Origin: Streptomyces sp. NBC_01283
Lineage (GTDB): Bacteria; Actinomycetota; Actinomycetes; Streptomycetales; Streptomycetaceae
Reading direction: 5' to 3'
DNA: 64,000 nucleotides
Assembly: GCF_041435335.1 (NCBI RefSeq)
Contig: NZ_CP108430.1
Location: 7,529,001 to 7,593,000, forward strand
This document shows, in pieces, positions 18,675 through 33,548 of this stretch. The translations under genes were made by a program, and so were the position numbers. Position 1 is the first letter of the stretch. Every line of letters starts with the position of its first letter. The notes under the pieces are model-generated. The model ran no database searches and was not told the DNA's origin. It worked only from the letters and a program-made list of their open reading frames with translations.

Positions 18675-19697
18675 GTGTCGACGGGCGGCCGGTCAGCCAT
18701 GCGGATGGGACCCGCGGAGCTGGTGCAGGCGGCGGCCATGGCCCGCCGCTTCTATCTCGAGGGCAAGTCCAAGATCCAGATCGCCGAGGAGTTCGGCGTG
18801 AGCCGCTTCAAGGTGGCCCGGGTCCTGGAGACGGCTCTCGAGCGTGATCTCGTACGGATCGAGATCCGGGTGCCCGCCGAGCTGGACGCGGAGCGCTCGG
18901 ACGCGCTCCGGGCCCGCTACGGCCTGCGGCACGCGGTCGTCGTGGAGTCTCCGACGTCCGCCGACGAGATCGACGACTCTCCCGACCCCGAGAACCTCGG
19001 CGAGGTGGCGGCGGACCTGCTCGGCGAGCTCGTCACCGAGGGCGATGTCCTCGGCCTGGCGTGGGGGCGCTCGACCATTCACATGGCCGCCGCCCTCGAC
19101 CAGCTTCCGCCGTGCACGGTCGTGCAGCTGACGGGTGTGTACGACGCCGGGACCGCCGAACGCGGGTCGGTCGAGGCCGTGCGGCGTGCCGCGCAGGTCT
19201 CCGGCGGCGAGGCCCACCCCATCTACGCGCCGATGCTCCTGCCGGACCCGGCCACCGCGGCGGCCCTGCGCAACCAGACGGGCATCGCCCGCGCCTTCGA
19301 GTACTTCGACAAGGTGACCGTGGCCGCGGTGTCCATCGGCTCCTGGGAGCCCGGCATCTCCACCGTCCACGACATGCTCAGCGACGAGGAGCGGGCGCAC
19401 TACGCCTCGCTGGGAGTCGCCGCCGAGATGTCCGCGCACCTCTTCGATGCCGAGGGGCGCCGGGTCGGGCGCGACCTGGGGGAGCGGTGCATCACCGTCG
19501 AGGCCGATCGGCTTCGACGGATTCCTGAAGTCGTGGCCATCGCCGGGGGGCAGCGGAAGGCCGCCGCGATTGACGCCGTGCTTCGGTCCGGGCTTGTCAC
19601 CAGCCTGGTGACGGACACTGCTGCCGCGGATCAGCTGATGGTCATGGGGCACACGCCGCATCCCGCGTTGGATCGGGCTGACCCGGACGGCAACTGA
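18675..19697 (+). CDS. SorC/DeoR-type sugar-responsive transcriptional regulator
   Basis: A 340-residue regulator. The N-terminal HTH spans residues ~15-50 (AAMARRFYLEGKSKIQIAEEFGVSRFKVARVLE). The rest is the SorC sugar-phosphate-binding domain, with the family signatures GLAWGRSTIHMAAAL, ELVTEGDVLG and IAGGQRKAAAI. Members bind phosphorylated sugars and act on carbohydrate genes. Standing next to rpe, it may sense a pentose-phosphate intermediate, but that is inference. The GTG at 18675 follows GAGGAG by seven bases. Three phased direct repeats lie in its promoter region. Confidence 0.9.
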   Translation: MSTGGRSAMRMGPAELVQAAAMARRFYLEGKSKIQIAEEFGVSRFKVARVLETALERDLVRIEIRVPAELDAERSDALRARYGLRHAVVVESPTSADEIDDSPDPENLGEVAADLLGELVTEGDVLGLAWGRSTIHMAAALDQLPPCTVVQLTGVYDAGTAERGSVEAVRRAAQVSGGEAHPIYAPMLLPDPATAAALRNQTGIARAFEYFDKVTVAAVSIGSWEPGISTVHDMLSDEERAHYASLGVAAEMSAHLFDAEGRRVGRDLGERCITVEADRLRRIPEVVAIAGGQRKAAAIDAVLRSGLVTSLVTDTAAADQLMVMGHTPHPALDRADPDGN

Positions 19698-23975: not shown

Positions 23976-25087
23976 GGTGCCGCCCGCCGGGGGCGGTAGG
24001 ACGCCAGCTCGGGGATGACTTCCTTGCCCAGGATCTCGATCGTGCGCAGGATCTCCTGGTGCTCCAGATAGCCCCACTGGACGTAGCAGATGAGCTGGTC
24101 GATGCCGAGGTCGGCGTAGCGCTTGGCCTTGCGGACGATCGTCTCCGCGTTGCCGATGAGGATCATGTCCCCGTCGTTGAACTCCTCGACGGGGACACTT
24201 CCTTCGATGATCGGGGTGAGGAAAGGGAAGGTCCGTTCGCGCTCCGCCGGGCTCAGGTGCGGCAGCTCCCAGTCGAGGGTGAACTGGGCGAGGTTGCGGT
24301 ACCACCAGGCGACGGAGTCCCAGACCCGCCGCGAGGGGCGGTCCGCCGCGTGCACCAGCGTGTACGCGCTCACGCGGTCCGTGGTGACGTCCGTGATCGG
24401 CGACGGCGTGCGCGCCGCGGCGCGGTAGGCGGCGACCTGACGGGCCATCGCGTCCAGCGGCTGCATGATCGAGAAGGAGAGCAGCCCGAGGCCCGCGGCG
24501 CCCGCCACCTCCGCCGAACCGGGGGACGTGGCGGCCATCCAGCACGGGGGATGCGGGTCCTGGGCCGGCTTCGGGGTGACCATCCGGCGGGGGAAGGTGA
24601 ACCGCTCGGACTCGTAGGCGAAGTACTCCTCGCGCCACATGCCCGTCACGATCTCGATCGCCTCGCGCCAGTCGGACCGCGACTGCTCCCGGTCGACGCC
24701 GAAGGCCGTCTGTTCCATGGGGGTCGAGCGTCCCGTGCCCCACTCGACGCGGCCGTCGGACAGCACGTCCACGGCAGCCACCTTCTCCGCGATCCGCTGC
24801 GGGGGCGTGAAGCCGAAGGGGGTGAGGGTGACGCCGAAGCCGAGGCGTATCCGCTCGGTGAGCCCTGCCAGATGCCCCAGGAGCACCTCGGGCGCCGGGC
24901 AGTGCGAGCGGCCCTCGCGGAAGTGGTGCTCCACGGCCCACACCGTGCGGAAGCCGACCCGGTCCGCGAGCCGGATCTGTTCCACGGCCTCGCGGTAGGC
25001 CCGCTGCTCGGCGGCGCGCTGGCCGTGCGGATGGGGCCCGTCCCAGGGCTTCGGCACGTCGATCTCGTACAGCACATCGAGGTCCAT
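23972..25087 (-). CDS. Luciferase-like (LLM class) flavin-dependent monooxygenase
   Basis: A 371-residue bacterial-luciferase-family oxidoreductase that uses reduced FMN or F420. Family features are VGFRTVWAVEHHFREG near residue 45, LTERIRLGFGVTLTPFG, the substrate/flavin loop VLSDGRVEWGTGRS, and GSVPVEEFNDGDMILIGNAE near the end. The ATG at 25087 has GAGGGAGGCAG upstream. It is the first gene of a three-gene operon. The gap before it carries four CGCAACG-like boxes. Proteins of this subgroup with an SDR partner take part in catabolic oxidation, but the substrate cannot be named from sequence. Confidence 0.88.
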   Translation of the reverse strand: MDLDVLYEIDVPKPWDGPHPHGQRAAEQRAYREAVEQIRLADRVGFRTVWAVEHHFREGRSHCPAPEVLLGHLAGLTERIRLGFGVTLTPFGFTPPQRIAEKVAAVDVLSDGRVEWGTGRSTPMEQTAFGVDREQSRSDWREAIEIVTGMWREEYFAYESERFTFPRRMVTPKPAQDPHPPCWMAATSPGSAEVAGAAGLGLLSFSIMQPLDAMARQVAAYRAAARTPSPITDVTTDRVSAYTLVHAADRPSRRVWDSVAWWYRNLAQFTLDWELPHLSPAERERTFPFLTPIIEGSVPVEEFNDGDMILIGNAETIVRKAKRYADLGIDQLICYVQWGYLEHQEILRTIEILGKEVIPELASYRPRRAAP

Positions 25088-25168
25088 CGCCTGCTGCCTC
25101 CCTCTCGACCGGGGTGCACGATGGGGCAGATCTGACGAAGTGTCAACCACTTGCCCGGGGCGACGGAA

Positions 25169-25247
25169 CGCAACGGACGAAACGGACCGCGCAACGAAGA
25201 CCCGCCATAAGGGGATGTACGCAACGATCATGCGGGCCTGCGCAAGG
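25169..25247. promoter_or_regulatory. CGCAACG box cluster between the LLM operon and the permease
   Basis: Exact copies of CGCAACG occur at 25169-25175, 25190-25196 and 25220-25226, and a one-mismatch copy (CGCAAGG) at 25241-25247. The steps are 21, 30 and 21 bases, i.e. close to two, three and two helical turns. The same heptamer is clustered in front of davA. An Lrp/AsnC regulator encoded 1.6 kb away is the natural candidate. The remaining 307-base gap contains only this cluster and the hairpins described separately. Confidence 0.55.
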
Positions 25248-25306
25248 TTGCTGCATTACGTACGTGAAGCGCGCCTCATAGAGTCGTCCGCTGTACGTGG
25301 TGTGGC

Positions 25307-25331
25307 GGGGACCGCCTGCTCGGCGGTCCCC
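25307..25331 (+). promoter_or_regulatory. Hairpin in the permease leader
   Basis: GGGGACCGCC (25307-25316) and GGCGGTCCCC (25322-25331) form a perfect 10-bp stem with loop TGCTC. A second weaker stem, GCTGCCG/CGGCAGC (25346-25352 with 25372-25378), ends just before the ribosome-binding site. The pair could attenuate permease expression. Confidence 0.45.
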
Positions 25332-25394
25332 ATCCATGCGTGGGAGCTGCCGCCGGTCCCGCCGACCTGACCGGCAGCGATGAAGGAGCCATGC

Positions 25395-26864
25395 GTGCTC
25401 GACCAAGGCGCACCCCCGCAGAACCGCCCAAGTCCCCAGGGGGCCGCGGGACTTGCCAGCCGCCTGATGCGGCGCAAGCCGGTGGAACTCCTGGTCGCGG
25501 AGGGCGGCCAGGGCGAAGGCGGCTCGCTGCGGCGCTCCCTCGGCATGTGGCAGCTGACCATGATCAGCATTGGTGCCACGCTCGGCACCGGCATCTTCGT
25601 CGTTCTCGGCGAGAGCGTCCCCAAGGCCGGGCCCGCCGTCACCATCTCCTTCGTGATCGCCGGACTCACCGCGCTCTTCTCCGCGCTCTCGTACGCCGAG
25701 CTGGCCGGCTCCATACCGGTCGCGGGCTCCTCGTACTCGTACGCGTACGCAACGATGGGCGAACTGATCGCCTGGGTCTGCGGCTGGTGCCTGGTCCTGG
25801 AGTACGGCGTGTCGGTCGCGGCCGTCGCCGTCGGCTGGGGTGAGTACCTCAACGAGCTGCTCGACGGAACGATCGGTGTCACCATCCCGGACACGCTCTC
25901 CGCGGCGCCCGGTGAGATCGACGGTGCCATCATCAACCTGCCCGGCCTGATCGTCGTCCTGCTCGCCATGGTGTTCCTGCTCGGCGGCGCCAAGGAGTCG
26001 GCGACGGCCAACACGATCATGGTCATCGTGAAGATCGCCGCACTGGTGCTCTTCTGCACCATCGGTTTCATGGGCTTCAAGTCCGGCAACTACTCCGACT
26101 TCATGCCGCTCGGCACGGCCGGGGTCAGCGCGGCGGCCGCGAGTCTCTTCTTCTCGTACATCGGCTTCGACGCCGCCTCCACTGCCGGTGAGGAAGCGAA
26201 GAACCCGCAGCGCGACCTGCCCCGCGCGATCATGCTGTCGCTGGTCATCGTCACGGCCCTCTACGTCCTGGTCGCCGCCGTCGCGGTGGGCGCCTGGAAC
26301 TGGAAGGACTTCGAGGGCTCCGAGGCGACGCTCGCCGCGATCATGAACGACGTCACCGGGCAGAGCATGTGGGGCACGATCCTCGCCGCCGGCGCCGTGA
26401 TCTCCATCGCGTCCGTCGTCCTGACCGTCCTCTACGGCCAGACCCGCGTCCTGTTCGCCATGTCCCGCGACGGCCTGGTCCCCAAGGTGTTCGGCAAGGT
26501 CAGCAAGAAGACCGGCACGCCCCGCGTGAACACCGTCATCGTGTCGCTGTTCTGCGGCGCGCTCGCCTCGGTCATCCCGCTCGGCAAGCTCGTCGACGCC
26601 ACCAGTATCGGCACGCTCTTCGCCTTCGGCCTGGTCAACATCGCGGTGATCGTGCTGCGCCGGACCCGCCCGGACATGCCGCGCACCTTCCGGGTGCCGC
26701 TCGGCTGGCTCTTCCCGGTGCTCGGCTTCGGCTTCTGCGCCTACAACATGTTCAGCCTCGACACCGTGACCTGGGTCGTGTTCGGTGTCTGGATGGCCGT
26801 CGGCCTCGTGTTCTACTTCCTGTACGGCATGAGCCGCTCCCGATTGGCCTCCGCAGAGAAGTGA
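25395..26864 (+). CDS. APC-superfamily amino-acid permease, cationic type
   Basis: A 489-residue secondary transporter with about 12 membrane helices. The first helix carries the family substrate-binding stretch SIGATLGTGIFVVLGE. Further APC signatures are ALSYAELAGSIPVAGSSYSY and FFSYIGFDAASTAGEEAKNP. The last two are typical of the CAT (cationic amino-acid) subfamily, so lysine, arginine or ornithine are likely substrates. The GTG at 25395 is favoured because AAGGAG lies six bases upstream; the ATG at 25380 would include that site. An Lrp-type regulator begins ten bases after the stop. Confidence 0.9.
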   Translation: MLDQGAPPQNRPSPQGAAGLASRLMRRKPVELLVAEGGQGEGGSLRRSLGMWQLTMISIGATLGTGIFVVLGESVPKAGPAVTISFVIAGLTALFSALSYAELAGSIPVAGSSYSYAYATMGELIAWVCGWCLVLEYGVSVAAVAVGWGEYLNELLDGTIGVTIPDTLSAAPGEIDGAIINLPGLIVVLLAMVFLLGGAKESATANTIMVIVKIAALVLFCTIGFMGFKSGNYSDFMPLGTAGVSAAAASLFFSYIGFDAASTAGEEAKNPQRDLPRAIMLSLVIVTALYVLVAAVAVGAWNWKDFEGSEATLAAIMNDVTGQSMWGTILAAGAVISIASVVLTVLYGQTRVLFAMSRDGLVPKVFGKVSKKTGTPRVNTVIVSLFCGALASVIPLGKLVDATSIGTLFAFGLVNIAVIVLRRTRPDMPRTFRVPLGWLFPVLGFGFCAYNMFSLDTVTWVVFGVWMAVGLVFYFLYGMSRSRLASAEK

Positions 26865-26874
26865 TCCACCCCCA

Positions 26875-27330
26875 GTGCGACTGAACGATCTCGACGAACG
26901 CATCGTGCACGCCCTCGCCGAGGACGCCCGCCGTTCCTACGCCGACATCGGCCAGCTGGTCGGGCTCTCCGCCCCCGCCGTGAAGCGGCGCGTGGACCGG
27001 CTCCGGGAGACCGGGGCCATCACGGGATTCACCGTGCGGGTCGACCCGGCCGCGCTGGGCTGGGAGACCGAGGGTTTCATCGAGATCTACTGCCGTCGCA
27101 ACACCTCGCCCGAGGCCATCCGCCGTGGCCTCGAGCGGTATCCGGAGATCGCGTCCGCCTCCACCGTCACCGGGGAGGCGGACGCCGTCGTCCAGGTCTT
27201 CGCCGCCGACATGCGGCACTTCGAGCGGGTGCTCGAACGGATCGCGGGGGAACCGTTCGTCGAGCGGACGAAGTCGGTGCTGGTGCTCTCGCCCTTGATG
27301 CGGAGATTCTCCTCCGGGGCACCTGCCTAG
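26875..27330 (+). CDS. Lrp/AsnC-family transcriptional regulator
   Basis: A 151-residue regulator. The N-terminal HTH covers residues ~3-60 (LDERIVHALAEDARRSYADIGQLVGLSAPAVKRRVDRL), and the C-terminal RAM ligand-binding domain follows (ASTVTGEADAVVQVFA). Lrp proteins form octamers or wrapped dimers and bind amino acids. It is the second gene after the amino-acid permease, only ten bases away, so it probably controls uptake in response to the transported amino acid. The CGCAACG box clusters before the permease and before davA are its likely targets. Confidence 0.92.
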   Translation: MRLNDLDERIVHALAEDARRSYADIGQLVGLSAPAVKRRVDRLRETGAITGFTVRVDPAALGWETEGFIEIYCRRNTSPEAIRRGLERYPEIASASTVTGEADAVVQVFAADMRHFERVLERIAGEPFVERTKSVLVLSPLMRRFSSGAPA

Positions 27331-27337
27331 AGGCCTC

Positions 27338-27907
27338 TTACGGCCGCTGATCCATCGGGCGTACGTGAAGGTCGCCGCTGCCGGGCCTTGTCCTGTCGAA
27401 CGGGGCCGCGCTCACGCACTTGGGCATGTCGTCCGGCAAGTCGTTCGGGATGCCGACCATGGCCCAGCTGTAGCCGAAGCGGTCGTGCCTGCCCTGGTCA
27501 TGGACCGTCACACCGATGCGCTTGCCGACCGCCCCCGCTAGGCCGCCGTCCGCCTTGGTGATGACCGCCGACACCGTGGCGACCTTCCCGCCGGTCAGCA
27601 GGCAGTCCACGCGAGCCTCGGCCGAGCCGCCGAACTTGGGGTGCTCCATGGAGTGGCTGATCTTGATGATGCCGTGCGCGGCCCCGGGGTCGTTCCGGTC
27701 CTCGGCGTCCAGACGGGCGTCGAGGGTGACGGTGGCCTCGTCGCCGGGGCGACGGTCCAGCTGTGCGGTTCCGGTCAGGGCGGCGGCCTCGCGCCCGGGG
27801 CGCGAGGCCGCCGACGCGGTCGCGGTCGCGGAGCCCGCGACTCCGGCGAGCGCGAGGAACGCGGCGCCCACGGCGACGACTCGGATGAACGTGGAACGGC
27901 GGTGCAT
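27338..27907 (-). CDS. Secreted protein, paralogue of the next gene
   Basis: A 189-residue exported protein of unknown function. A Sec signal peptide (RRSTFIRVVAVGAAFLALAGVAGSATA) is followed by AREAAALTGTAQL-like sequence and a beta-rich domain. Segments shared with the neighbour at 28115-28756 are EAAALTG, VDCLLTGGKVATV, VTVHDQGRHDRFGYSWA and a single late Cys (MPKCVSAAPF). Together with the Cys in DCLLTGG it could form a disulfide. The ATG at 27907 is chosen because the signal peptide starts there. It runs convergent to the Lrp gene, with only seven bases between stops. Confidence 0.85.
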   Translation of the reverse strand: MHRRSTFIRVVAVGAAFLALAGVAGSATATASAASRPGREAAALTGTAQLDRRPGDEATVTLDARLDAEDRNDPGAAHGIIKISHSMEHPKFGGSAEARVDCLLTGGKVATVSAVITKADGGLAGAVGKRIGVTVHDQGRHDRFGYSWAMVGIPNDLPDDMPKCVSAAPFDRTRPGSGDLHVRPMDQRP

Positions 27908-28026
27908 GGGAAGCCCCCGTCTGGCGGTGGTCCGCCCGGTCCCTCCGGGCGTGATCCACACTCCCGTGGGCCGGGCCCCGGTACATCGTGCGTGAGGGGG
28001 TGGCCCCCTCCGCCGTGCGGCGGGGA

Positions 28027-28073
28027 ACGGGTGGTTCGTGGGGCGGAGACGGGTGGTTCGTGGGGCGGAGACG
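28027..28073. repeat. Perfect 22-bp tandem duplication
   Basis: Two identical 22-base units (28027-28048 and 28049-28070), plus the first three bases of a third, lie in the 207-base gap between the two secreted paralogues. The unit is GC-rich and is not a codon multiple. The copy number may vary between strains. Confidence 0.9.
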
Positions 28074-28114
28074 CCGGGCCCGCCCGACCCCCGTACGGGC
28101 GGGACCCGGCGCGA

Positions 28115-28756
28115 TCAGTTGGTCGGGTACGTGACGTGCCAGGGCTTGACGTCGAAGTCGCCGGTGCCGTTCCTGACCTTCTCGAAGGGGGCCGAGCTCG
28201 TGCACTTGGGCAGCTTCCTGGTCCCGTCGGGGCCGCCCACCGCGGCCCAGCTGTAGCCCACGCGGTCGTGCCTGCCCTGGTCGTGGACCGAGAAGCCGAC
28301 GCGGCCGCCCTTGATGCCCTTGAGGTTCGATGCGGTGATGATGCCGGTGGCCGTGGCGACCTTGCCGCCCGTCATCAGGCAGTCGATGCGGCCTTCGGCC
28401 CAGCCGCCCTTGCCGCCCGGCTTGTCGAGGTGGACGAAGCGGAAGGTGCCGGTCGCCTTGTCCGGGCGCATGTTGTGGCGCTTGGCCAGATGGGCGTCGA
28501 AGGTGAACGTCACGTCCTCGGTGGTCTTGCGGTAGAGCTTCGCGCTGCCGGTGAGGGCCGCGGCCTCCCGGGCGTGGGTCTGCGAGGCCTGCGAGGTCTG
28601 CGAGGCGGCCCTGTGTGGTGTCCCGCCGTCGTCCGACGCCACGGCCGCCCCCGCGGCTCCCGCGCAGAGCAGCAGGGCGGTGCCGATGGCGATCGCGCGG
28701 CTGCGGCTGCTGGTCAGGCGGCTGTCGGTGATCCGGCTGAGTGCGTTGCGGCTCAC
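28115..28756 (-). CDS. Secreted protein, paralogue of the preceding gene
   Basis: A 213-residue exported protein. The N-terminus has Arg-rich positive residues and a hydrophobic core (AIAIGTALLLCAGAAGAAVA), then a Ser/Gln/Thr linker, then the conserved domain: REAAALTGSAKLYRK, RIDCLMTGGKVATATG, VGFSVHDQGRHDRVGYSWAAVGG and LPKCTSSAPF. The GTG at 28756 has GGAGGC just upstream. It lies upstream of and parallel to its paralogue. Both have very similar upstream blocks (CCCGGTCC-TTCCGGGCG and CCTCCGCCGTGCGGCGGGGA), which indicates duplication of gene plus promoter. I recognise no catalytic motif. Confidence 0.85.
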   Translation of the reverse strand: MSRNALSRITDSRLTSSRSRAIAIGTALLLCAGAAGAAVASDDGGTPHRAASQTSQASQTHAREAAALTGSAKLYRKTTEDVTFTFDAHLAKRHNMRPDKATGTFRFVHLDKPGGKGGWAEGRIDCLMTGGKVATATGIITASNLKGIKGGRVGFSVHDQGRHDRVGYSWAAVGGPDGTRKLPKCTSSAPFEKVRNGTGDFDVKPWHVTYPTN

Positions 28757-28939
28757 GGGGAGCCTCCGTCCGAAGTGCCGTTCACCCGGTCCTTCCGGGC
28801 GAGATCACGGTCTCGCGGCAGGGGGTCCCGGCACGTCCGGCCAGGGGCGGCATTCCGCCTCCGCCGTGCGGCGGGGATCACCCCCGCGCGCCCTGCGCCT
28901 GGGGGAGGACAGCGCTACGGCTCCGGCCCCATGCCACCG

Positions 28940-28999
28940 CGCAACGAATCGTCGCCGAAGGCCCCGTACGCGCAACGGATCACGCAGCTGCCCGCAACG
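28940..28999 (+). promoter_or_regulatory. CGCAACG box cluster upstream of davA
   Basis: Three exact copies of CGCAACG at 28940-28946, 28971-28977 and 28993-28999, with steps of 31 and 22 bases. The first two share the wider form CGCGCAACG-A/G-ATC. They lie 83-142 bases before the davA ATG within a 325-base gap that otherwise shows only the promoter block of the divergent secreted-protein gene. Confidence 0.55.
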
Positions 29000-29081
29000 C
29001 TCGCGCCTTGTCCGGGCAGGGCCGCCGACCGTACGGTCTAACGGACCCCACCTGCCCCTTCGTACGCCCCGAGGATCCGCC

Positions 29082-29879
29082 ATGCCTGCGCTGCGCACCG
29101 CCCTGCTCCAGAGTTCCGGGCAGCTCGGCTCCGTCGCCGAGAACCTCAAGGCGCTCGACGACGCCGCGGGCCGTGCCGCCGCGGCGGGAGCCGGACTTCT
29201 CGTGGCGCCCGAGCTGTACCTCACCGGGTACGCGATCGGCGACGACGTCGCGCGCCTCGCCGAGGCCGCCGACGGGGCGTCGGCCGCCGCGCTCGCCGAG
29301 ACCGCCGCACGCCACGGCGTCGCGATCGCCTACGGCTACCCGGAGCGGGACGGGGAGCGGGTCTTCAACTCCGTCCAGCTGATCGGCCCCGACGGCGAGC
29401 GCCTGGCGAACTACCGCAAGACCCACCTCTTCGGCTGCTTCGAGCGCGACTCCTTCACCCCCGGTGAGCAGACCGTCGTACAGGCGGAGCTGGGCGGTCT
29501 GCGGATCGGCCTGATGATCTGCTACGACGTGGAGTTCCCGGAGAACGTCCGCGCGCACGCCCTCGCGGGCACCGATCTGCTGCTCGTCCCCACGGCCCAG
29601 ATGCACCCCTTCCAGTTCGTCGCCGAGTCGGTCGTGCCGGTGCGGGCCTTCGAGAACCAGATGTACGTCGCCTACGTCAACCGGGTCGGCAAGGAAGGGG
29701 AGTTCGAGTTCGTCGGGCTCTCCACGCTGGCCGGTCCCGACGGGGTGGCACGCGTCCGGGCGGGACGCGAGGAGCAGCTCGTGTTCGCCGACGCCGACCC
29801 CGCCTTCCTCGCCGCGTCGCGCGAGGCCAACCCCTACCTCCGCGACCGCCGCCCGGGTCTGTACGCGTCCCTGGTCTGA
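29082..29879 (+). CDS. davA: Nitrilase-family amidase, probable 5-aminopentanamidase (DavA)
   Basis: A 266-residue carbon-nitrogen hydrolase. The catalytic triad is present: Glu44 in APELYLTGY, Lys113 in NYRKTHLFG and Cys147 in MICYDVEFPEN. Length and segments such as YGYPERDG, FNSVQLIGPDG and RKTHLFG match DavA of Pseudomonas putida, which turns 5-aminovaleramide into 5-aminovalerate and ammonia. The davB-like gene follows 57 bases downstream, the same two-step partner. Ribosome-binding site GAGG lies seven bases before the ATG. Another amide, such as indole-3-acetamide, cannot be excluded from this gene alone. Confidence 0.82.
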   Translation: MPALRTALLQSSGQLGSVAENLKALDDAAGRAAAAGAGLLVAPELYLTGYAIGDDVARLAEAADGASAAALAETAARHGVAIAYGYPERDGERVFNSVQLIGPDGERLANYRKTHLFGCFERDSFTPGEQTVVQAELGGLRIGLMICYDVEFPENVRAHALAGTDLLLVPTAQMHPFQFVAESVVPVRAFENQMYVAYVNRVGKEGEFEFVGLSTLAGPDGVARVRAGREEQLVFADADPAFLAASREANPYLRDRRPGLYASLV

Positions 29880-29936: not shown

Positions 29937-31646
29937 ATGACGTCCACGGTGCCCACCGCCGTCCAGCACACCGACGCCCAGCCGCCGATCACCATGTTCG
30001 GTCCGGACTTCCCTTACGCGTACGACGATTTCCTCGCCCACCCGGCGGGCCTCGGCCAGATACCCGCGACCGAACACGGCACGGAGGTCGCGGTCATCGG
30101 CGGCGGCCTGTCCGGCATCATCGCGGCGTACGAGCTGATGAAGATGGGCCTCAAGCCCGTCGTCTACGAGGCCGACCAGATCGGCGGCCGGCTGCGCACC
30201 GTCGGCTTCGACGGCTGCGACCCCTCGCTGACCGCGGAGATGGGCGCGATGCGCTTCCCGCCGTCCTCGACGGCGCTCCAGCACTACATCGACCTGGTGG
30301 GCCTCAAGACCCAGGCGTTCCCCAACCCCCTCGCGGAGTCGACCCCCTCGACGGTCGTCGACCTCAAGGGCGAGTCCCACTACGCGACGTCCGTCGACGA
30401 CCTGCCGCAGGTCTACCGCGACGTGATGAACGCCTGGAACTCCTGCCTGGAGGAGGGCGCCGACTTCTCCGACATGAACCGCGCCCTGCGCGAGCGCGAC
30501 GTACCGAAGATCCGTGAGATCTGGTCCAAGCTCGTCGAGAAGCTCGACAACCAGACCTTCTACGGCTTCCTCTGCGAGTCCGAGGCCTTCAAGTCCTTCC
30601 GGCACCGCGAGATCTTCGGCCAGGTCGGCTTCGGCACGGGCGGCTGGGACACCGACTTCCCGAACTCCATCCTGGAGATCCTGCGCGTCGTCTACACCGA
30701 GGCCGACGACCACCACCGCGGCATCGTCGGCGGCAGCCAGCAGCTTCCCCTGCGCCTGTGGGACCGTGAGCCGCAGAAGATCGTGCACTGGGCGCCCGGC
30801 ACGTCCCTGAGCTCGCTGCACGAGGGCGGTCTGCCGAAGCCCGCCGTGACCCGGCTCGACCGCACCGCGGGCAACCGCGTCACCGTCACCGACTCCTCGG
30901 GCGACATCCGCACCTACCAGGCGGCCATCTTCACCGCCCAGTCCTGGCTGCTGCTCTCCAAGATCGCCTGTGACGACACCCTCTTCCCCATCGACCACTG
31001 GACGGCGATGGAGCGGACCCACTACATGGAGTCCTCCAAGCTGTTCGTGCCGGTCGACAGGCCGTTCTGGCTGGACAAGGCCGTCGACGACAGGGGGAAC
31101 CCGACCGGGCGTGACGTCATGTCGATGACGCTCACCGACCGCATGACGCGCGGGACCTACCTGCTCGACGACGGCCCGGACAAGCCCGCCGTCATCTGCC
31201 TCTCCTACACCTGGTGCGACGACAGCCTGAAGTGGCTGCCGCTGTCGGCGAACGAGCGCATGGAGGTCATGCTCAAGTCGCTCGGCGAGATCTATCCCAA
31301 GGTCGACATCCGCAAGCACATCATCGGCAACCCGGTGACCGTGTCGTGGGAGAACGAGCCCTACTTCATGGGCGCCTTCAAGGCGAACCTGCCGGGCCAC
31401 TACCGCTACCAGCGGCGCCTGTTCACGCACTTCATGCAGGAGACGTTGCCCGAGGACAAGCGGGGTATCTTCCTCGCCGGTGACGACATCTCGTGGACGG
31501 CCGGTTGGGCCGAGGGTGCGGTCCAGACCGCGCTGAACGCGGTGTGGGGCGTCATGCACCACTTCGGTGGTGCGACCGATGCGACCAACCCCGGGCCGGG
31601 CGATGTGTACGACGAGATCGCCCCGGTGGAACTGCCGGAGGACTGA
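29937..31646 (+). CDS. davB: Flavin monoamine oxidase family, probable lysine 2-monooxygenase (DavB)
   Basis: A 569-residue FAD enzyme. The dinucleotide motif VIGGGLSGIIAAYELMKMG starts near residue 52, followed by the acidic VVYEADQIGGRLRT. C-terminal FAD contacts are in IFLAGDDISWTAGWAEGAVQ. Stretches such as FGPDFPYAYDDFLAHPAGLG, HREIFGQVGFGTGGWDTDFP and PYFMGAFKANLPGHYRY agree closely with what I recall of Pseudomonas DavB, which oxidatively decarboxylates L-lysine to 5-aminovaleramide. Distance to tryptophan 2-monooxygenases is greater. Together with davA it would form 5-aminovalerate; the later steps (DavT, DavD) are not in this window. Confidence 0.82.
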   Translation: MTSTVPTAVQHTDAQPPITMFGPDFPYAYDDFLAHPAGLGQIPATEHGTEVAVIGGGLSGIIAAYELMKMGLKPVVYEADQIGGRLRTVGFDGCDPSLTAEMGAMRFPPSSTALQHYIDLVGLKTQAFPNPLAESTPSTVVDLKGESHYATSVDDLPQVYRDVMNAWNSCLEEGADFSDMNRALRERDVPKIREIWSKLVEKLDNQTFYGFLCESEAFKSFRHREIFGQVGFGTGGWDTDFPNSILEILRVVYTEADDHHRGIVGGSQQLPLRLWDREPQKIVHWAPGTSLSSLHEGGLPKPAVTRLDRTAGNRVTVTDSSGDIRTYQAAIFTAQSWLLLSKIACDDTLFPIDHWTAMERTHYMESSKLFVPVDRPFWLDKAVDDRGNPTGRDVMSMTLTDRMTRGTYLLDDGPDKPAVICLSYTWCDDSLKWLPLSANERMEVMLKSLGEIYPKVDIRKHIIGNPVTVSWENEPYFMGAFKANLPGHYRYQRRLFTHFMQETLPEDKRGIFLAGDDISWTAGWAEGAVQTALNAVWGVMHHFGGATDATNPGPGDVYDEIAPVELPED

Positions 31647-32753: not shown

Positions 32754-33458
32754 TCAGTCCGCCAGGGGCGTGAGCAGCATCCTGCCCACCAGGCCGACCG
32801 CTCCGTCCAGGCGCTCCCGGAACTCCTCGGCCACGGCGGGCAGTCCGTCCAGCGCCCGCATCGTCAGGGCCGTCGCCCAGGCGCTGTCCCTGGCCCGCTC
32901 CAGGCTCCAGGAGCCCAGCAGGTGGGTGAGCGGGTCGGCGATCTGGAAGAGGTCGGGACCCGGCATCAGCTGTTCGCGGATGCTCTCCTCCAGCGAGACG
33001 AGGATGTCGCCCACGCGGTCGAACTCGTCCTCCAGCTCGGCCGGTTCGCAGCCGAGCGCACGACAGGCGTCCATGACGGCCAGCGGAAGGTCGTGCCCGA
33101 TGTGCGCGTTGATGCCCGCGAGCGCGAACTGCAGGGGGCGGACGCCGGGATGGCGCCGGAGCTGGAACAGCGGCCGCCAGCAGGCGGGCGGCCTGCGGTC
33201 GGCGGCCACCGCTTCGACCGCCGTCAGATAGCGCTCGGCGAACAGGACGTCCAGCGTGAGAGCGGCTCCGGTGTCCGGGAAACGGCCGCCGTCGAGGTGC
33301 CGGCCGACCTCTTCGGTGACGGAGAGATAGACCCGGTTGAAGACCCCGACCCCGTCCCGCGGTGGGAAACCGGCGCCCAGCGCGCGCATCCGCGACACCA
33401 CGCCGTCAATCCCGTGAGCCGAGCCTGTGAACTCCGCGAACCGCTCCAGCTGCGCCAT
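32754..33458 (-). CDS. DUF5995 family protein
   Basis: A 234-residue, mostly helical cytoplasmic protein. The segments GVGVFNRVYLSVTEEVGRHL, ACWRPLFQLRRHPGVRPLQFALAGINAHIGHDLPLAV (split across two helices) and DEFDRVGDILVSLEESIREQL mark the DUF5995 family, whose function is unknown. The invariant-looking NAHIGHDL with two His suggests metal or haem binding, which is inference. The ATG at 33458 is chosen; a GTG at 33497 is possible, and neither has a good ribosome-binding site. Confidence 0.8.
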   Translation of the reverse strand: MAQLERFAEFTGSAHGIDGVVSRMRALGAGFPPRDGVGVFNRVYLSVTEEVGRHLDGGRFPDTGAALTLDVLFAERYLTAVEAVAADRRPPACWRPLFQLRRHPGVRPLQFALAGINAHIGHDLPLAVMDACRALGCEPAELEDEFDRVGDILVSLEESIREQLMPGPDLFQIADPLTHLLGSWSLERARDSAWATALTMRALDGLPAVAEEFRERLDGAVGLVGRMLLTPLAD

Positions 33459-33548
33459 GGGGGCAGGGTCCCAGTCAGGGGCTTGTCCGCGTGCCACCGC
33501 ACCGGTCGCGTCCCCAGAACGAGGGAACGGCGACCATGTGTGCCATGC

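Follow-up and report, generated by a model that had tools for sequence, protein, structure and literature searches.

A recurrent three-box array upstream of permease-lrp and davAB in Streptomyces and its probable recognition by the adjoining Lrp/AsnC-family regulator

The window analyzed here (64,000 nt of Streptomyces sp. NBC_01283, contig NZ_CP108430.1, positions 7,529,001 to 7,593,000) carries two clusters of the heptamer CGCAACG, one upstream of a permease gene and an Lrp/AsnC-family regulator gene (permease-lrp) and one upstream of the gene pair davA-davB (davAB). Both clusters have a common plan, with three boxes 31 and 22 bp apart (davA) or 30 and 21 bp apart (permease) and then a -10-like hexamer. 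We consider it probable (roughly 0.66) that the Lrp/AsnC protein binds these arrays and, with lysine or a related amino acid as ligand, activates permease-lrp and davAB, and that the module has been retargeted to these genes. The features concerned, all on the forward strand, are as follows.

25169..25175, forward: extra box 0, CGCAACG, 21 bp before box 1; part of the relatives have a similar extra box
25190..25196, forward: permease array box 1, exact CGCAACG, kept in relatives
25220..25226, forward: permease array box 2, exact CGCAACG, kept in relatives
25241..25247, forward: permease array box 3, near copy CGCAAGG, which is frequent here in relatives too
25256..25261, forward: predicted -35 of permease-lrp, TTACGT (weak), in a conserved block; consensus reading only
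25279..25284, forward: predicted -10 of permease-lrp, TAGAGT, 38 bp after the box 3 start (39 in most relatives)
25380..26864, forward: APC-family amino acid permease (TIGR00909 above cut-off, PF13520)
26875..27330, forward: Lrp/AsnC-family regulator with recognition helix LSAPAVKRRVD (PF13404 and PF01037)
28940..28946, forward: davA array box 1, exact CGCAACG, kept in relatives
28971..28977, forward: davA array box 2, exact CGCAACG, kept in relatives
28993..28999, forward: davA array box 3, exact CGCAACG, kept in relatives
29008..29013, forward: predicted -35 of davAB, TTGTCC, conserved; consensus reading only
29032..29037, forward: predicted -10 of davAB, TACGGT, 39 bp after the box 3 start
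29082..29879, forward: DavA-like carbon-nitrogen hydrolase, 5-aminovaleramidase-like (PF00795)
29937..31646, forward: DavB-like flavin L-amino acid (lysine) monooxygenase/oxidase (PF01593; 3we0, E 2e-232)

As a word, CGCAACG was not enriched in the window, because its count equaled the shuffle mean (17 vs. 17.3 expected); it is the clustering, not the word frequency, that departs from chance. The source genome was scanned whole (9,594,106 bases). A pair pattern (CGCAACG-N9..36-CGCAACG, i.e., steps of 16-43 bp) gave nine matches, four of which were these two clusters, 3.7 kb apart; a strict triple pattern (GCAANG-N23..25-GCAANG-N14..16-CGCAANG) gave two, both at these clusters. An earlier note made from the window alone had reported exact boxes at 25169, 25190 and 25220 with a near copy at 25241 (steps 21, 30, 21) and exact boxes at 28940, 28971 and 28993 (steps 31, 22), and had held that such clusters were not chance. 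The positions and steps were reproduced, and with nine pairs and two triples in 9.59 Mb, equally frequent clusters over the whole genome were not observed.

The strict triple pattern was found in 42 of 61 genomes of a genus sample that includes the source genome (three with the reversed pattern used as control), in 62 of 150 genomes of a family sample from 17 genera (control, 10) and in 43 of 394 genomes of a class sample (control, two). For the genus set, the other 57 Lrp-bearing loci were fetched and the gaps aligned. A davA match was present in 43 of the 58 loci, two of them partial (L052 and L059) and dropped (n = 41), and 16 loci were without the permease (n = 42). The davA gap consensus was CGCAACGAATCGCCG, 31 bp on CGCAACGAATCG and 22 bp on CGCAACG, followed by CTTGTC and by TACCGT 39 bp after the box 3 start. 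The permease gap consensus was GCAACGA, then after 30 bp CGCAAyGATC and after 21 bp GCGCAAGG, with TAGGGT 39 bp after box 3. Thus, by the letters conserved in both gaps, the davA and permease promoters agree in the order, direction and helical phase of their boxes and in the -10 distance. Mismatches per box were scored against single-base shuffles: all three boxes had at most one mismatch each in 36 of 41 davA and 27 of 42 permease promoters, and a total of at most three mismatches was reached by none of the 820 davA and none of the 840 permease shuffles. More than three mismatches in total were present in 4 of 41 davA promoters.

A named sample consisted of the best 80 of 578 relatives from a contig scan (79 titled Streptomyces and one actinobacterium), and here the 300 bp upstream were searched with a triple pattern looser than the strict one. 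The array was upstream of davA in 46 of 46 loci (34 others absent or off locus) and upstream of the permease in 65 of 67 (13 others absent or off locus), so the clusters are not absent from the orthologous gaps, a comparison that the earlier note had proposed. S. lincolnensis (L236) is among the named loci that carry both arrays. With the same looser pattern, the 300 bp before davB, taken as negative control, held an array in 1 of 46 loci.

The hexamer TANNNT was located 38 or 39 bp after box 3 in 41 of 41 davA and 39 of 42 permease promoters of the genus set, and in 46 of 46 davA and 63 of 65 permease promoters of the named loci. In a pooled set of 92 distinct arrays, unrelated matches counted in, the offset was exactly 39 in 79 arrays and 38 in four, and all remaining offsets of the stretch together accounted for eight; the most frequent spacing was 31/22 (59 arrays), followed by 30/21 (21 arrays) and 31/21 (eight arrays). 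Nine arrays had no TANNNT at 37-40, namely four unrelated sequences (L138, L139, L148 and L150, among the 14 loci inspected outside the family) and five ddaH arrays from outside the family (L137, L140, L141, L147 and L149). A transcription start approximately 7 bases past the -10 would place box 3 near -51 to -45 in the family, and the boxes, all of which precede the -35 and share one helical face, would then occupy an activator position. In three ddaH promoters (L141, L147 and L149), TANNNT stands 17 bp after box 3 and approximately 39 bp after box 2; here the promoter seems to have moved by a single box step.

The array follows the Lrp gene, not merely davAB. An Lrp ortholog (at least 78% identity) was present in 58 of 61 genus genomes; G037 and G050 (82% complete) were without both DavB and Lrp, and the only apparent exception, G028, has 28 residues of the Lrp ortholog (its start) at a contig end. 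When orthologs in the family sample were required to reach at least 82% (DavB) or at least 79% identity (Lrp), both were present in 79 genomes and neither in 69, with DavB alone in one (G129) and Lrp alone in one (G196, 71% complete). Among the 69, a DavB-like protein of approximately 61% occurs in four genomes and an Lrp homolog of 50-64% in many. The 62 family genomes with the strict array comprised 58 with the Lrp ortholog, the three of genus g2 described below and one unlike match (G207). In G129, davAB is present, there is no Lrp ortholog (best 33%) and there is no array. Among the 22 Lrp genomes without a strict match, 20 were fetched and 18 were readable (of the other two pieces, one was without davA and one was cut by a contig end); the best triple was 31/22 in 18 of 18 and TANNNT was at 38/39 in 17 of 18. 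Mismatch counts of at most 4 of 21 in 17 genomes and 5 in one were compared with that of G129 (7). The strict triple pattern was therefore rejected as the sole test of presence, because the misses carry the array with more mismatches.

Rearranged loci were also observed. L129 has two arrays, one directly before lrp and one before davA. In G012, davA is apart from davB and lrp, and the array stays with davA; in L041, where no davA match was found, it precedes davB. No other regulator gene directly adjoined the locus as often. A gene for a regulator with a sugar-binding domain (18675-19697) is conserved in 35 loci, but approximately 7 kb upstream.

The recognition helix LSAPAVKRRVD was identical in all 59 alignment-covered of 60 array loci, with some genomes counted more than once, even where overall identity falls to 50%. 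On balance we favor the view that these proteins form an actinobacterial Lrp subfamily distributed across several families, with a phased three-box array placed at a defined distance from the promoter, in which the invariant helix and the box spacing stayed fixed down to 50% identity while the catabolic enzymes were exchanged; the targets exchanged would, with similar confidence, be ddaH-rocD, perhaps a pyridoxal phosphate (PLP) decarboxylase gene, and davAB with the permease.

Arrays beside other genes bear on this view. In genus g2 (three genomes, no DavB at E 1e-150), the array precedes ddaH-rocD-lrp, with TANNNT at 38/39 and an Lrp homolog of 58-61%. The rocD product of one g2 locus (L117) passes the ornithine transaminase model TIGR01885, and its ddaH piece (240 aa) has as best NCBIfam match the model for dimethylargininase of the M. 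tuberculosis type (246 of 300 bits, below cut-off). In the class sample, 15 array loci were inspected, 14 of them outside the family; the only genus member (L151) has davAB. Outside the family, genes for DdaH and an Lrp homolog (50-63%) adjoined the array in 9 of 14 loci. In eight of the nine, rocD was also in the piece, and in eight of the nine the array separated divergent lrp and ddaH; one further locus (L149) had ddaH only. L120 has an array (two mismatches, 31/21) flanked by genes for an Lrp homolog and a PLP decarboxylase (PF00282). Candidate arrays before PLP decarboxylase genes in L121-L124 and L136 were rejected, their boxes being looser by eye and their scores, where given, 5-7 mismatches; two loci of this type (L133 and L134) showed no array boxes. 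A GCAAGG-rich match recurs in G001, G007, G049 and G180, and other matches occur in G007, G003 and G207.

In a tree, the dav Lrps formed one clade (100/97) nested among ddaH-rocD and decarboxylase Lrps, which suggests that arginine/ornithine breakdown (ddaH-rocD) was the older target, although this is unproven. Judged from these comparisons, the module is wider than the earlier note held, being kept in several families of the class. One Streptomyces Lrp paralog (L135:8430-8830, 56%) with the helix SATAV is located before ddaH-rocD, and its boxes are CGCAGCG, CGCAGCG and CGCAACG, with TACCGT 39 bp after the last (by eye). The CGCAGCG boxes and the SATAV helix are a possible matched change of specificity, in one case.

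In the mechanism that we propose, the two clusters would be one operator present twice, made of three same-direction 7-bp boxes (CGCAAYG) approximately three and two helical turns apart on one DNA face. The boxes immediately precede the -35, and the -10 hexamer keeps a distance of 38-39 bp from box 3. The Lrp (26875-27330) would bind the arrays, probably through a multimer that spans the phased boxes, and with an amino acid ligand (lysine or another basic amino acid) would activate permease-lrp and davA-davB; since permease-lrp would be a target, the Lrp would also control itself. davA-davB would convert lysine to 5-aminovalerate. Because relatives carry the boxes beside the same type of regulator, regulator and operator would be one module, present in several families of the class and attached to differing degradation genes; its older target was perhaps ddaH-rocD, and in Streptomycetaceae it would have acquired davAB and the permease. 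The earlier note had proposed that these genes form a small regulon by which a basic amino acid is imported and oxidized, and this appears to be the best reading; the array tracks the Lrp, and the closest solved relative of DavB is 3we0.

Binding of the same Lrp as a repressor, released by lysine or acting through a wrap that blocks RNA polymerase, was weighed against activation. Lrp proteins act as both activators and repressors. At loci where lrp and ddaH diverge from the array, a single complex could activate on one side while repressing on the other, and the hexamer 17 bp after box 3 in L141, L147 and L149 means that box 3 would touch the -35. In the family, however, the boxes end upstream of the -35, at a distance to the -10 that is the place of an activator, and the permease -35 is weak; moreover, the M. 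tuberculosis roc genes and Rv2324 rise with arginine, which fits activation and is no proof of it (PMC4569260). We regard repression as unlikely.

Another regulator encoded elsewhere, such as one of AraC type or a nitrogen regulator, might bind the boxes, with the Lrp as a co-selected neighbor, and one-direction boxes approximately 21 bp apart that end at the -35 do resemble AraC-type sites. This is very unlikely: the array occurs beside an Lrp homolog without davAB in genus g2 and in other families, it is gone where the Lrp is gone (G129), no other regulator gene adjoins as often (the sugar-binding-domain regulator is distant), and the recognition helix is identical at low overall identity. 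Chance or low-complexity repeats of GC-rich DNA would agree with the unremarkable heptamer count in the window and with the control matches in 10 of 150 family genomes, given that even the strict triple pattern is fairly loose. The arrays are nevertheless rare and phased, keep a constant spacing to the promoter and are conserved, and their conservation refutes this explanation, the probability of which we consider negligible.

Several observations weigh against binding and activation by the Lrp. All boxes point in one direction and no dyad is common to them, whereas Lrp proteins usually use 15-bp pseudo-palindromes. Partial dyads did occur: 100 of 136 arrays had CGANTCG within davA box 1, and a CGCA-N7-TGCR-like pair (TGCR 11 bp past the start) was present at permease boxes 2 and 3 in 48 and 88 of 99 arrays, respectively; a dyad search found none in the other boxes, and per-sequence dyad scores were little above those of flank-shuffled sequences (at best 4.50 vs. 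4.04). The recognition helix also occurs in 23 loci without a pattern match, some of which are pattern misses; the remaining loci without a match have SATAV, SASAV or unrelated helices. Permease arrays are weaker, with more than three mismatches in total in 9 of 42 (seven in L087 and L091), and two of the 67 named permeases are without an array within 300 bp upstream. The promoter distance is not universal: among the ten outside-family ddaH arrays, five are at 38/39, three at 17 and two at neither. G129 is a single case, and because its davA is diverged (61%), the loss of the array may reflect an unrelated exchange of the promoter. The forks that nest the dav clade are only modestly supported, the permease family is without information on substrate, and the position before the -35 suggests activation, short of proof.

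Boxes of GlnR type, considered from a CGAAACG between boxes 0 and 1, were rejected because their spacing (9 and 12 bp, by eye) is unfit and because the conserved positions are those of the three boxes.

In E. coli, Lrp binds several phased sites upstream of a promoter. The protein described here belongs to the same family and differs in its short, GC-rich, one-direction boxes without common dyad, in its putative two-operon regulon and in the set -10 distance. The archaeal proteins LysM and Ss-LrpB are local amino acid regulators, Ss-LrpB with three regularly spaced sites; their sites are palindromic, unlike the boxes found here. The DavA-DavB lysine pathway of Pseudomonas has the same gene pair, a flavin lysine monooxygenase and an amidase, which here would be under an Lrp-linked array. 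The E. coli Lrp consensus is quoted as YAGHAWATTWTDCTR (PMC6379999).

In M. tuberculosis, arginine induces the rocDE-Rv2323c cluster, the adjoining AsnC-type gene Rv2324 is up six-fold, and a role of Rv2324 in arginine metabolism has been proposed (PMC4569260); mutations in Rv2324 were noted in persister mutants (PMC4866775). The Rv2324/Rv2319c-rocDE-Rv2323c arrangement, an AsnC-family regulator beside a DDAH-like hydrolase gene and rocD, resembles the system described here (PMC4569260). The likeness is drawn from published description, and the targets in the window differ (davA, davB and the permease). The window locus is thus not of the Rv2324/roc type, and the array-bearing ddaH-rocD relatives are homologs at 50-63%. 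Neither an operator nor binding is mentioned in the passages of PMC4569260 on Rv2324 and roc. SSP_Lrp of S. spiramyceticus and SCAB_Lrp2 of S. scabies are likewise Streptomyces Lrp-family regulators, again likened by description only, and differ in controlling spiramycin and thaxtomin; the main texts on both do not contain "lysine," and that on SCAB_Lrp2 does not contain "direct repeat." A literature search, with most subscription journals outside it, yielded no report that describes the operator or control of davAB by a Streptomyces Lrp.

For a group of Lrp/AsnC regulators, the array would make the operator code readable, so that regulons in Streptomyces and beyond could be predicted from DNA alone, and it would offer a case in which regulator and operator were kept while enzymes were swapped. 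The link between lysine supply and the davAB pathway becomes testable. If our reading is true, activation of transcription through an array of one-direction boxes would be unusual for an Lrp protein.

The gene lrp starts 10 bp past the permease stop, between the two clusters. Its product exceeded the cut-offs for PF13404 (57.4 bits) and PF01037 (54.8 bits), and all named NCBIfam Lrp/AsnC equivalogs (AsnC, LysM, Lrp and LrpA) were below cut-off (best, AsnC, 64.9 of 227 bits; LysM, 64.2 of 180 bits). The permease passed the general model TIGR00909 (574.8 vs. cut-off 556.8) and was below the more specific models BcaP (517 of 690 bits) and cationic TIGR00906 (315.6 of 681.7). DavB matched the solved L-amino acid oxidase/monooxygenase 3we0 over residues 12-566 (E 2e-232). 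We take the 3we0 enzyme to act on lysine; DavB retains the second aspartate of WDxD and the tryptophan of SYxW, presumably substrate-site residues, and has alanine in place of a cysteine that we take to tune the activity of the 3we0 enzyme. DavA matched PF00795 with 173 bits, and its gene is paired with davB. Lysine is the best guess for substrate and ligand because DavB resembles 3we0 and DavA is a carbon-nitrogen hydrolase, with the permease only general.

Two further gene arrangements concern relatives. Seven permease-less loci (L070, L071, L073, L076, L079, L082 and L083) have an aldehyde dehydrogenase gene (PF00171) directly before lrp, possibly a later step of the same pathway; these loci show a conserved leader, and no array was seen there. 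Four genus genomes (L112, L113, L114 and L115) have second DavB-like genes (approximately 62% to DavB), beside which no davA-cluster gene or array was seen. Control of the LLM gene by the permease array was rejected as unneeded, because both the array and the predicted promoter are directed at the permease and because an LLM match stands beside 7 of 58 Lrp loci, the window included.

The permease leader contains one further feature:

25307..25331, forward: permease-leader hairpin, 10-bp stem, loop TGCTC, sequence conserved in relatives

This perfect hairpin is located just past the predicted transcription start, inside GTACGTGGnGTGGCGGGGACC, a stretch kept in most relatives. It may serve as a cis-regulatory RNA or else as a stability element; its being part of the system is unproven. 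An Rfam scan of 25000-29300 (E up to 1) gave no match. RNAalifold gave a consensus energy of -0.9 kcal/mol for the leader, which says little, because three sequences were misplaced (L040, L077 and L087; L041 and L091 were unplaced) and the energy is so small.

Between lrp and davA, the minus strand encodes two related small, probably secreted proteins (27338-27907 and 28115-28756) with no Pfam or NCBIfam match, relatives of which are located near davA in part of the genomes. Downstream of davB, on the opposite strand, is a gene for a DUF5995 protein (32754-33497), with relatives in 41 clustered loci.

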